Shown here: in pieces, positions 19,344 through 22,895 of the stretch
Layout of the letters: each line of letters starts with the position of its first letter
How positions within the stretch are numbered: the first letter of the stretch is position 1
Source: a virus
Strand: one strand, 5' to 3'
Virus record (IMG/VR): IMGVR_UViG_3300020474_000105
Coordinates: 1-24,542 of that record
Length of the DNA: 24,542 nt
Notes under the pieces: generated by a model
What the model saw: the letters and a program-made list of their open reading frames with translations, nothing else
What the model was told of the DNA's origin: nothing
The model's database searches: none
Position numbers and translations under genes: made by a program

Positions 19344-19640
19344 ATGTCTTTTACATCTAGAGTTGAATTTCTAGGTCATCCGGGCGTTGGTCGTCAGCTT
19401 GCTGCTGGCGACACTTCGACTAACACTGCGCTGACCGCTGGCATCTACCGCATCTCTATGCGAGCAGTAGGTGCCGACATTCGCTTTGCTATTGGGCAAG
19501 GCGCACAAACTGCTACTGCTACCTCACCTTTTATTGCAGATGGTGAGCGGCTTGATTTTGCTGTTACTAACGGCTCAAACATTGCTGTCCTTCGAGACGC
19601 ATCTACTGATGGAGTGTTAGAACTTACTGAGCTAGGCTAA
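19344..19640 (+). CDS. small beta-rich putative virion protein
   Basis: This is a 98-residue protein. Its sequence alternates as in a beta sandwich: AGIYRISMRAVGADIRFAIG at about residues 33-52, then SPFIADGERLDFAV and SNIAVLRDASTDGVLELTEL to the end. Small phage structural proteins of about 100 residues with a 'yRis..a..di.fa.G...tAt..sp.l.aG...f.v..gs.iav..d...G.l.vtel' pattern are common, often as decoration or tail-tip components. I recognise the pattern but no function. The AAATAAACT leader repeats that of the preceding gene. The stop overlaps the next ATG (TAATG). Confidence 0.55.
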   Translation: MSFTSRVEFLGHPGVGRQLAAGDTSTNTALTAGIYRISMRAVGADIRFAIGQGAQTATATSPFIADGERLDFAVTNGSNIAVLRDASTDGVLELTELG

Positions 19641-20383
19641 TGCGATTAGGAACTACTTCTCTATCAGTCACTAAGTCTGGTAGAAAAAGAAAAAAAGCTG
19701 TATCTGGCGGCGGAGGTGGCGGCGGCGTACCACCTGGAACACCAGTCAATGTAAGCTATAAATATCACGCTTATGGGGCAGGTGTAAACTACACCAGGGT
19801 ATATTGGGTCACATCAAGCGGGTATAACTTACTCAGAACAATAACTGGTCAACAACAAACATTTCAGAACGCAGCTTGGAATACATATGTTGACGATTTA
19901 ACACCATATAGAGGTACTACTGGCAAAGTTGCTTGGGTTTATATAACTAATTCTCAAACTCAGTCGACAAATGCCAATAACTACACGCAAGATGTGGGAT
20001 TTGACGATATGAAGATTAACAATGCTGACCAAGCTTCAGGTGTCATAGATTATTCACCAACTTATGCAAGCACTCATCTTGGATGGATTAATCAACAATT
20101 TAGTCTTCCAGCTGCATCTGATGTCATCACCCAAGTAAATGCCACCACAACAGCAACTGAAAATGCTGGGAACGCTTTACAAAGAAACGCCACAGTTAGT
20201 TCTAACAGACGTTATTACAATACACATACAGGCGCTACTCCTAGCCAAAACACTGGGCCACATGCTGCAGCTGATGGCAGCCTTGGAACTTATTACGTTA
20301 TGTATGAATCTACGAGTGGCACTAACCAGACTCACAACAGATATGAAGTTCTAACTACGTCCTCTACAGTTACGCTTTTATAA
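19640..20383 (+). CDS. putative carbohydrate-binding-like (beta jelly-roll) virion protein
   Basis: This is a 247-residue protein of unknown family. It has a basic N-terminus (SGRKRKKAV, residues 13-21), a run of seven glycines (23-29) as a flexible linker, then a domain of about 215 residues rich in Tyr, Trp, Asn and Thr. That domain contains NVSYKYHAYGAGVNYTRVYW near the start, a DDLTPYRGTTGKVAWVYI stretch (about 91-108) and a QDVGFDDMKI motif (about 123-132). The pattern 'surface-strand... G..g.l.f.y......t.D.gfDdi.' resembles jelly-roll lectin-like domains that end in a calcium or sugar site; this is inference from pattern. It may bind host surface glycans as part of the fibre set. It overlaps both neighbouring genes by one base. 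Confidence 0.5.
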   Translation: MRLGTTSLSVTKSGRKRKKAVSGGGGGGGVPPGTPVNVSYKYHAYGAGVNYTRVYWVTSSGYNLLRTITGQQQTFQNAAWNTYVDDLTPYRGTTGKVAWVYITNSQTQSTNANNYTQDVGFDDMKINNADQASGVIDYSPTYASTHLGWINQQFSLPAASDVITQVNATTTATENAGNALQRNATVSSNRRYYNTHTGATPSQNTGPHAAADGSLGTYYVMYESTSGTNQTHNRYEVLTTSSTVTLL

Positions 20384-20714: not shown

Positions 20715-21187
20715 TGGAATGGGCAGATCCGCCCGTATTGCCCGTCTGGAGCCTCCCTGAAGCGCCGTTACTACCTACTCCGATACTGGAGCTACCTAGC
20801 GCCGAAATACCCTCGTATAAGCCGCTTGTAGTACCTCCTAATACTCTTAGACCACCACCTGGTGTCCAAGGGATCGAGCCAAAGGACGAGCCACCACAGG
20901 CACAAAAAACAAAAACAACACCTAAGAAAGCTACACCTGCTCAACCAGATGTAAAGCTTCCTAATAACATACCACCTGAAGCACAGATTGTTGCCATTCC
21001 ATTTACGGACATCGAAGTACCGATGCCAACAACAACAATCATGACCACGGCTGCAACTACATCGGTCATTTCGGTGGGAGCCACCCTTGCTGCTACGTCA
21101 CTTTTTAAATACTTGGTGATGGTAATGAAACCCATCCTTAAACAAGCATGGAACAAATTGACAAAGAAAAAACAAAATCCTTCTTAG
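20714..21187 (+). CDS. proline-rich single-span membrane protein (cyanophage-type, unknown function)
   Basis: This is a 157-residue protein. Residues 1 to about 105 are proline-rich and extended (MEWADPPVLPVWSLPEAPLL ... VVPPNTLRPPPGVQG), with a basic Lys/Thr/Pro stretch near 64-80. One membrane-spanning helix follows (about 110-135, TTSVISVGATLAATSLFKYL) and then a basic tail (KPILKQAWNKLTKKK). By the positive-inside rule the tail is probably cytoplasmic and the Pro-rich part outside, which suits a protein reaching through the periplasm. I recall similar proteins in cyanophages with no known role. Its last 40 bases overlap the holin candidate. A spanin-like or envelope-bridging role is speculation. 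Confidence 0.65.
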   Translation: MEWADPPVLPVWSLPEAPLLPTPILELPSAEIPSYKPLVVPPNTLRPPPGVQGIEPKDEPPQAQKTKTTPKKATPAQPDVKLPNNIPPEAQIVAIPFTDIEVPMPTTTIMTTAATTSVISVGATLAATSLFKYLVMVMKPILKQAWNKLTKKKQNPS

Positions 21188-21441
21188 CGAAAGTCAAAGA
21201 GAATACAGAGGACGAAATACAAATCCTTGGTACTTTCGTACGACTTGGTGTCGTCATATGGAGTGGCTTTATTATTACACTTAACTATGTTGACCTACCT
21301 ATGATCAAAAAGGGTCAAAGTGGTGGGGACATTACTTTCGTCGCCAGCGTCTTTACGGGCGCTCTTGCGACGTTCGGTTTGACGACATCAAATACAAAAT
21401 CTGCTAACCAAAAACCTGACCCTAAAAAGAAAGACGAATGA
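21148..21441 (+). CDS. holin candidate, two transmembrane helices
   Basis: This is a 97-residue protein. A charged N-terminus (MEQIDKEKTKSFLAKVKENT) is followed by a first hydrophobic helix at about 30-47 (FVRLGVVIWSGFIITLNY), a short loop with lysines, a second helix at about 62-79 (ITFVASVFTGALATFGLT) and a strongly basic tail (KPDPKKKDE). Size, two helices and charged tail fit a small phage holin, which would form lethal holes in the inner membrane, but no endolysin is adjacent. It could also be a small membrane protein of another role. It overlaps the previous gene by 40 bases and the next by 4 (ATGA). Confidence 0.5.
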   Translation: MEQIDKEKTKSFLAKVKENTEDEIQILGTFVRLGVVIWSGFIITLNYVDLPMIKKGQSGGDITFVASVFTGALATFGLTTSNTKSANQKPDPKKKDE

Positions 21442-21794
21442 AACGCCTTATTTTGCTTCTAATTTTGGCTAGCGCTACACCAGCTGCAGCCAACCAAATC
21501 ACCCCTAACTTTACACAGGGGTCAATGAATTCCACTACTACAACCACTGTAGAAATTGATCGTACGATCGAGACTGAGATCTATGGTGGTGCCTATTCAT
21601 CATGGTCCGGTCACAACGTAACCCCAAGTTCGCATATCAACGATTCTGCGACTACTTATTCCGTAACCACCGCAGGAGAGAACTTCCAGTTAGAACTTAC
21701 GACAAGAGCAGCAGGGGTGATCGAAGATACTACCATCACAGAAACTATCGACCAAACCTCTACTATTACATCCTTGTCAGTCTTCTCGCAGTAA
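21438..21794 (+). CDS. secreted beta-rich protein ending SLSVFSQ (cyanophage-type)
   Basis: This 118-residue protein has a clear signal peptide: MKR, then the hydrophobic LILLLILASATPAAA with likely cleavage after ATPAAA (about residue 18). The mature part is rich in Thr/Ser and beta strand (TTTTTVEIDRTIETEIYGG, SWSGHNVTPSSHI, ENFQLELTTRAAGVIED) and ends TSLSVFSQ. I recall small secreted proteins in cyanophages with the same ending, of unknown function; this supports the stop at 21792-21794. There is no lipobox cysteine. It starts at an ATGA overlap with the holin candidate and shares its last 193 bases with the next ORF in another frame. Confidence 0.7.
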   Translation: MKRLILLLILASATPAAANQITPNFTQGSMNSTTTTTVEIDRTIETEIYGGAYSSWSGHNVTPSSHINDSATTYSVTTAGENFQLELTTRAAGVIEDTTITETIDQTSTITSLSVFSQ

Positions 21795-22246
21795 CACCTG
21801 CATTTGCAAAAGAGGATCCAACAGTAAATAATACGTCTAACCCTGTTGCTGCTGCAACGGGCAATGTTACTAATCAGGCGGTGCAATTTCAAAACAATGG
21901 TGCACCGTCTCGTCAATACTTTGGACCTAACAGTTCCTGCAACGGAACGACTATGCAGGTATCCCCTTTTTATATGGGCAGTGACACTATTCCACAAGAT
22001 AGTACGTACACTCGTACAGGTAACTGGGGTATGCAACTCAATTTTGCAGTACCTTTAGATGGTGGGATGATTGAGTTATGTAAGAGTATTGCTAGAAAAC
22101 ATGAACAAAAACTACGTCTAGATTATGAGATTGTCCGTGCTCTTAAATGTGCTGAACTACAGCAAAAAGGTTTTACTTTTAGACCTGGAACACGTGTCGA
22201 AAGTCTCTGTAGTGATATAGTCCCTATTGTCTCCTTAAATGACTGA
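21602..22246 (+). CDS. secreted/membrane-anchored cyanophage-type protein, start uncertain
   Basis: The C-terminal 155 residues look like a genuine exported protein: a hydrophobic stretch YYYILVSLLAVTPAFA (about 54-69) with a cleavage site after AFA, a Thr/Asn-rich region, NWGMQLNFAVPLDGGMIELC and a final helical domain with spaced cysteines (ELCKSIA..., RALKCAELQQKGFTF, ESLCSDIVPIV). I recall this Cys-spaced family from cyanophages, function unknown. Upstream there is no ATG, GTG or TTG in frame until ATG 21602, which adds about 53 Arg/Tyr/His-rich residues coded by the same bases as the previous gene. Either that long overlap is real, a rare ATC start at 21770 is used, or an indel hides the start. 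No slippery heptamer is seen. Confidence 0.6.
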   Translation: MVRSQRNPKFAYQRFCDYLFRNHRRRELPVRTYDKSSRGDRRYYHHRNYRPNLYYYILVSLLAVTPAFAKEDPTVNNTSNPVAAATGNVTNQAVQFQNNGAPSRQYFGPNSSCNGTTMQVSPFYMGSDTIPQDSTYTRTGNWGMQLNFAVPLDGGMIELCKSIARKHEQKLRLDYEIVRALKCAELQQKGFTFRPGTRVESLCSDIVPIVSLND

Positions 22247-22493
22247 AGCGCTCGTCACTGTTGTCATAGCTTCTATTACAGCAGGAGCTGCTCTAAACAA
22301 CAGACTACACAAAAGAATAAATAACGTACATGATCGTATTAGTGGTCTAGACCGCCGTATTGATTCCATCGAACTGGGTGTAGCTACAGACTATGTGTCT
22401 AAAGCTGACCTAGGAACCATGGTTAAACGTATGGAGGATCATATGGTACGCATTGAAAACAAACTAGACCAAATAGTACTTAGAAACAACTAA
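22239..22493 (+). CDS. small membrane-anchored coiled-coil protein (i-spanin-like candidate)
   Basis: This is an 84-residue protein. An N-terminal hydrophobic helix (about 4-20, ALVTVVIASITAGAALN) is followed by a long heptad-patterned coiled coil to the end (RINNVHDRISGLDRRIDSIE ... MVKRMEDHMVRIENKLDQIV). One N-terminal anchor plus a periplasmic coiled coil is the plan of an inner-membrane spanin, but the same plan occurs in other phage membrane proteins. No lipoprotein partner with a lipobox is visible nearby. It overlaps the previous gene by 8 bases; the next ATG is two bases after its stop. Confidence 0.6.
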   Translation: MTEALVTVVIASITAGAALNNRLHKRINNVHDRISGLDRRIDSIELGVATDYVSKADLGTMVKRMEDHMVRIENKLDQIVLRNN

Positions 22494-22495
22494 TT

Positions 22496-22672
22496 ATGTC
22501 CCACCAACTTGTAGATCTCTTTATTGATAAAGTGATCGGCGACTACGAAACGCTTGAAAGTGCTGAAAAAGCTTTGAGCCGTCTGTATTCAGAATCTGGT
22601 CGCTACGAGATTAAATCACCCAAGGTACGTAAACCACGGGCAAAGAAAGCTAATGTCGAAAAAAGCAACTGA
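22496..22672 (+). CDS. small hypothetical protein upstream of TerS
   Basis: This 58-codon ORF runs from ATG 22496, two bases after the previous stop, to TGA 22670-22672, and overlaps the TerS start by 20 bases. The product starts MSHQLVDLFIDKVIGDYETL, is helical with a LESAEKALSRLYSESGRY segment, and ends in a basic tail (KVRKPRAKKANVEKSN) that could touch nucleic acid. No family is recognised. The continuous overlap chain and position beside the packaging genes favour real expression. Confidence 0.6.
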   Translation: MSHQLVDLFIDKVIGDYETLESAEKALSRLYSESGRYEIKSPKVRKPRAKKANVEKSN

Positions 22673-22895
22673 AGATCAGTTTAACGACCTACACAACCTC
22701 GTTACAACTGAATTTCTCAAACGTATTAAAAGTGGAGAAGCTACTACACAAGACCTAAAGGCTGCTTGTGATTGGCTCCACAAAAACGATATTTCCGGTG
22801 TTGCCTATGACGGTAACCCGTTGGACAAACTATCTACCATTCTACCCAAAGTAGATCCTGAAATGGTACAAACTCGTCTGTATGGCAAAAGGTAG
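22653..22895 (+). CDS. terS: small terminase subunit, T7 gp18-like
   Basis: This 80-residue protein is close in size to T7 gp18 (89), the small terminase that recognises concatemeric phage DNA and stimulates TerL. It begins MSKKATEDQFNDLHNLVTTE, continues LKRIKSGEATTQDLKAACDW and ends LDKLSTILPKVDPEMVQTRL then YGKR. This helical pattern, with 'SGeat..dLKAA.dWL..NdIsGv...gnPL..L...lP..dpe', is one I recognise from cyanophage and related podoviral TerS proteins. It overlaps the preceding ORF by 20 bases and the basic protein by 14. Placement two genes ahead of TerL, with nucleases between, agrees. Confidence 0.85.
   Translation: MSKKATEDQFNDLHNLVTTEFLKRIKSGEATTQDLKAACDWLHKNDISGVAYDGNPLDKLSTILPKVDPEMVQTRLYGKR

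Follow-up and report, generated by a model that had tools for sequence, protein, structure and literature searches.

Internal start of an overlapping gene for a predicted exported protein in marine cyanophages

Two neighbouring genes in a virus record of 24,542 bases (the whole of which is referred to here as the window) raise the question of where the second of them begins. Gene 1 (21438..21794, with its ATG at 21438 and its stop at 21792-21794; coordinates written with two dots refer to the plus strand) encodes a predicted exported protein of 118 residues. The gene 2 reading frame opens at 21578, and an ORF reading confirms the claim of an earlier sequence-only reading that it contains a lone ATG, GTG or TTG before the hydrophobic segment LYYYILVSLLAVTPAFA, namely ATG 21602. 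A start at this position gives a precursor of 214 residues (21602..22246, delimited by the ORF and by profile matches) and makes the last 193 bases of gene 1 (21602..21794) code in two frames, with the third base of each gene 1 codon serving as the first base of a gene 2 codon. The sequence-only reading noted this overlap and left three options, namely true dual coding that gives gene 2 a long basic N-terminus, a rare ATC start at 21770, or a base error. We conclude, with a probability of about 0.93, that gene 2 is initiated internally at ATG 21602, that the 193 bases are dual-coding, and that gene 2 encodes a precursor made up of an n-region of 52 residues, a Sec core and a predicted cleavage site after AFA.

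The locus and its relatives

The window consists of late genes of a T7-like marine cyanophage. Its close named relatives include S-TIP37, S-RIP1, S-RIP2, S-SBP1 and the uncultured phage S45-C4, all of them Autographiviridae. The gene pair sits between a small DUF6450 protein with hydrophobic stretches (21148..21441; PF20048, E 2e-30), which is holin-like by appearance only, and an 84-residue protein (22239..22493; phrog_12220, E 2e-24), whose gene adjoins that of the terminase small subunit (22653..22895; PF11123, E 7e-17). The 84-residue protein has a hydrophobic N-terminus followed by a heptad-like helix, and judged by eye it is i-spanin-like. Relatives of this protein are encoded directly 3' of the endolysin gene in S-CBP1 and S-SRP01 (the loci concerned are window 22239-22493, L475:1606-2734 and L476:1945-2734), and genes 1 and 2 were not found in the stretches of S-CBP1 and S-SRP01 that were read. 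Because these relatives follow the endolysin where genes 1 and 2 are not found, the slot resembles a lysis module whose contents have been exchanged. Elsewhere in the window, a predicted protein of 247 residues (19640-20383), located after the tail genes, has no PHROG or Pfam match.

Gene 1 belongs to phrog_650 (profile search, E 5e-33) and to the Pfam family DUF6322 (PF19847; 31.6 bits against a curated cut-off of 30.6, E 2.5e-7). Gene 2 belongs to the families phrog_1755 (E 1e-45) and phrog_848 (E 6e-45), and a search with 58 relatives gave no Pfam match for it. Protein searches identified 382 phage records with a gene 2 homologue, almost all of them from cyanophages, and 30 with a gene 1 homologue at the sensitivity used. 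A literature search found no published description of these families, or of overlaps in cyanophages.

In total 474 loci were compared, including the window. They were obtained from scans of viral contigs and from 24 annotated regions, and include both isolates and metagenomes. In 422 of the 474, the end of gene 1 overlaps the gene 2 signal peptide in the relative frame seen in the window; 381 of these 422 were scorable, and form 121 clusters at 85% identity. Both genes are also present in the P-SCSP2 type (L022 and about 44 more, up to 45 loci), where they overlap in the other relative frame and where the ATG that most often serves as start precedes the gene 1 end by 56 bases and adjoins an ordinary signal peptide. 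The few remaining loci are either truncated or differ slightly in how gene 1 ends. Since the pair recurs in 422 loci and again in the P-SCSP2 type, the two genes go together.

It is worth adding two details from individual loci. In the P-SCSP2 type, the bases for the same C-terminus of gene 1 (SLSVFSQ) also specify a normal signal peptide, in a different frame. In GU071093 (L010), a partial record of P-SSP7, the match to gene 2 is in two pieces and gene 2 is unannotated, and the complete P-SSP7 record differs; an indel in one or other of these two records is likely.

Where gene 2 starts

Start positions were counted from the first codon of the signal core, which is at 21758 in the window. The sequence-only reading had suggested a comparison of starts in homologues. 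A canonical start that lies inside gene 1, 3' of the last in-frame stop and 5' of the signal core, is present in all 381 scored loci (121 clusters), compared to an expectation of 13.3 of the 121 clusters when gene 1 is randomly recoded using the same amino acids and the codon usage of the clade; the clusters are related to one another, which makes the probabilities uncalibrated, while the direction is not in doubt. In the clade to which the window belongs, an ATG is found at -156 in 34 of 35 clusters, with 6.8 expected. This codon (21602..21604) spans the TCA-TGG (Ser-Trp) of gene 1, and in those 34 of the 35 clusters the serine before the tryptophan is encoded by TCA, which accounts for approximately a fifth of serine codons.

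The position of the start is characteristic of each clade. In the 9515-10a clade it lies at -171; of two T4-like cyanophage clades, one has it at -129 and the other at -27; and in the P-SSP7 clade it is mostly at -75 or -30. All of these starts, like that at -156, straddle a gene 1 tryptophan codon, as ATG arises wherever TGG comes after a codon whose last base is A. In the -27 clade, the threonine preceding the tryptophan is ACA in 23 cases out of 23.

The frame downstream of the start is also kept open. When the synonymous codons of gene 1 were resampled, a frame open from the ATG was expected in 0.07 of the 35 clusters of the window clade, and it is observed in 34. A stop in the gene 2 frame can arise wherever a gene 1 codon with T as its third base is followed by AA, AG or GA. 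In the window clade, 150 of 227 such sites upstream of the ATG are stops, as against 3 of 432 downstream. All three downstream stops belong to one locus (L007), in which AGC replaces TCA and this ATG is lost; L007 has a single start, an ATG at -75, and all of its stops are upstream of that position. Similar switches are seen in the -27 clade (157/379 upstream, 0/69 downstream) and in the -129 clade (40/171 and 0/128). The switch is weaker in the 9515-10a clade (12/191 and 1/308), the frame of this clade being mostly open 5' of the start as well. Every clade retains a signal core that overlies the 3' end of gene 1. In the window clade both frames are thus kept open by selection beyond what gene 1 alone explains, which is the mark of dual coding. 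At the level of sequence, this comparison establishes the start, the open frame and the conservation of the overlap, and it supports the first of the three options, true dual coding from ATG 21602, on the basis of both the ATG in 34 of 35 clusters and the stop switch.

A possible Shine-Dalgarno-like site, GGTGGTG (21585..21591), is located 10 bases 5' of the ATG. Its pairing to the anti-Shine-Dalgarno sequence is moderate, with an energy of -6.2 kcal/mol; the mean for the clade is also -6.2, and the energy is weaker at most shifted positions. As a ribosome site supporting ATG 21602 this is weak evidence, because gene 1 requires those Gly-Gly codons.

Other explanations of the locus fit these observations poorly. 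If gene 2 were initiated at a non-canonical codon near the signal peptide, with the upstream frame untranslated, the signal peptide would be of normal length, and the ATC at 21770 is indeed in frame. However, the column containing this ATC reads ATC in only 10 of the 35 clade clusters, CTC in 18 and TTC in 7, and within the window clade there is no conserved near-cognate column near the core. Initiation at ATC 21770 or at any other near-cognate codon would moreover leave unexplained both the fixed upstream ATG and the fact that stops disappear precisely at that ATG, and is considered highly improbable. The third option, that a base error or an assembly indel created the overlap, draws on the odd gene layout and nothing more, and the same overlap is found in 422 of the 474 loci, in hundreds of contigs and isolate genomes. 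The overlap of 21602-21794 is accordingly real, with an exact count of 193 bases, differing frames and conservation in relatives, and the chance that it is an artefact is negligible.

The direction of the overlap would also allow gene 1 to be joined to gene 2 by a -1 or +2 shift, so that a programmed frameshift would give a fused protein. Against this, only 3 of 121 clusters have a slippery-like heptamer within the final 120 bases of gene 1, and the other 118 have none. Moreover, the open region begins at the start codon specific to each clade, which may be a mere 27 bases from the core, and in the P-SCSP2 type the relative frame is the other one. A frameshift is therefore scarcely credible here.

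Internal initiation implies changes to existing annotations. Among the 24 records read, the start proposed here is already annotated in S-RIM8 (gp165), P-GSP1, P-SSP3 and P-SSP10. In many records, for example P-SSP7, S-TIP37, S-RIP1 and S-SBP1, gene 2 is annotated from inside or after the signal peptide, and in two (NATL1A-7 and 9515-10a) from far upstream. A similar annotation bias against overlapped genes has been described for spanins (PMC6139136). The present analysis would correct the start of a family found in 382 phage records, many of them annotated without an export signal.

The leader and the signal peptide of gene 2

The leader that precedes LYYYILVSLLAVTPAFA (21602..21757) consists of 52 codons including the Met. 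The sequence-only reading had described it as a long leader rich in Arg, Tyr and His inside gene 1; this description is correct, and the leader is also rich in Asn. The Tyr, His and Asn residues are largely a consequence of the many threonine codons in gene 1, each ACN becoming NAC when the reading begins one base earlier. In the window clade, the net charge of the leader has a mean of +10.1 compared with +7.8 expected given an open frame, and pair identity is 0.41 compared with 0.31 expected on the same basis, indicating modest conservation. Synonymous variation of gene 1 in this part is slightly reduced in the window clade (0.535 vs 0.568, p 0.18); in the S-RIM8 clade the values are 0.353 vs 0.535 (p 0.001). 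As the reduction in the window clade is so small, the leader sequence appears to be weakly constrained. Strong conservation of the leader sequence was considered and rejected, both pair identity and synonymous variation pointing to a modest level.

The length of the leader varies by clade from about 9 to 57 residues, with no fixed motif, and in the P-SCSP2 type the leader is a normal short n-region. Because one clade has only about 9 residues and the P-SCSP2 type a short n-region, neither the length nor the sequence of the leader is essential to the gene 2 family.

The signal-peptide core and the AFA cleavage motif (21758..21808) lie over the last codons of gene 1, and were assigned from hydropathy and from the motif itself. 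Hydropathy peaks at 2.73, at ILVSLLAVT, and a cleavage motif of the A-x-A type is present in 119 of 121 gene 2 relatives. Gene 2 thus has the basic n-region, hydrophobic core and A-x-A motif of a Sec signal peptide, with an n-region far longer than usual.

The simplest reading is that the leader is a long, length-flexible cytoplasmic n-region of a Sec signal peptide. On this basis we propose that ATG 21602, lying within gene 1, would be used for ordinary internal initiation to yield a precursor in which a positively charged, sequence-tolerant n-region of 52 residues is followed by a normal Sec core, the 193-base overlap coding for parts of both proteins. The leader would serve only as n-region, its length being free to drift. 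Cleavage after AFA would release a mature gene 2 protein beginning near the Lys coded at 21809, and this protein, once exported, may act together with the gene 1 protein in the periplasm. Between clades the start has shifted from one tryptophan codon of gene 1 to another, with the predicted exported body still recognisable, which constitutes a natural experiment on the evolution of overlaps and of n-regions.

Possible function and comparison with known systems

The gene 1 protein has an N-terminal signal peptide with a cleavage-like end, and AlphaFold models it as a long two-stranded β-hairpin (pLDDT 87). A fold search produced weak matches to the stems of β-barrel pores and to phage collar proteins, the best having a Z of 4.3 over 46 residues. 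The predicted likeness consists of the long hairpin and is one of structure only. It is at the level of a common arrangement, with no sequence match in the PDB, and this modelled resemblance does not show function. In a viral structure library the clear matches are mostly to unnamed or uncharacterised phage proteins, several of them evidently from the same family. The model for gene 2 is too poor for use (pLDDT 66, best fold-search E 0.5); its alignment contains four invariant cysteines. Searches of PDB sequences gave nothing of note.

The sequence-only reading had likened the overlap to the embedded spanins of the Rz1 type, while noting that no lipobox is present. The pair does consist of overlapping genes for proteins predicted to be exported, located after the gene for a DUF6450 membrane protein and before that for the small terminase, and in S-CBP1 and S-SRP01 the endolysin adjoins the relative of the 84-residue neighbour. 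As in overlapped Rz/Rz1 spanins (PMC6139136), the signal of the second gene is coded in the end of the first, the starts are often misannotated, and the slot is of a lysis type. However, the lipobox expected of an o-spanin is missing from the window, as had been noted, and the pattern is matched in relatives by 1 of 121 for gene 2 and 0 of 121 for gene 1. Nor does gene 1 resemble an i-spanin, having a cleavable-looking signal and a predicted β structure in place of a membrane-anchored coiled coil. Both proteins in fact have cleavable-looking signals, and the probability that they constitute a two-component Rz/Rz1 spanin is very low.

P-SSP7, like many cyanomyoviruses, is among the phages listed as spanin-less in PMC6139136, which also points out that the place of an o-spanin might in principle be taken by an outer-membrane protein. 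On the basis of these two points and of the lysis-type slot, a putative envelope-breaking role for the gene 1 and gene 2 proteins is plausible, and we regard it as a fair hypothesis. More specifically, the pair might form an outer-envelope disruption system of those marine cyanophages listed as spanin-less, in which gene 1 supplies a β-structured ring or channel that works at lysis with the gene 2 protein, a periplasmic partner containing cysteines. In this detailed form the proposal is speculative and on balance doubtful. It would nevertheless provide a candidate envelope-acting pair for phages with no recognised outer-membrane lysis protein.

Overlapping phage genes are already known; the cyanophage overlap is new, and is unusually well resolved. 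Its nearest counterparts are S-RIM8 gp166/gp165 and the hypothetical proteins of P-SSP7, S-TIP37 and others, which belong to the same families and have the same order and overlap as the pair in the window, and differ from it in a start position and leader length that are specific to the clade. An n-region of 52 residues is unusual for a signal peptide, and autotransporters offer an example of signal peptides in which this region is long. Gene 2 is similar to these in having an extended charged stretch before a normal core, but differs in that its stretch is imposed by the overlapping gene, varies in length between clades and has no fixed motif.
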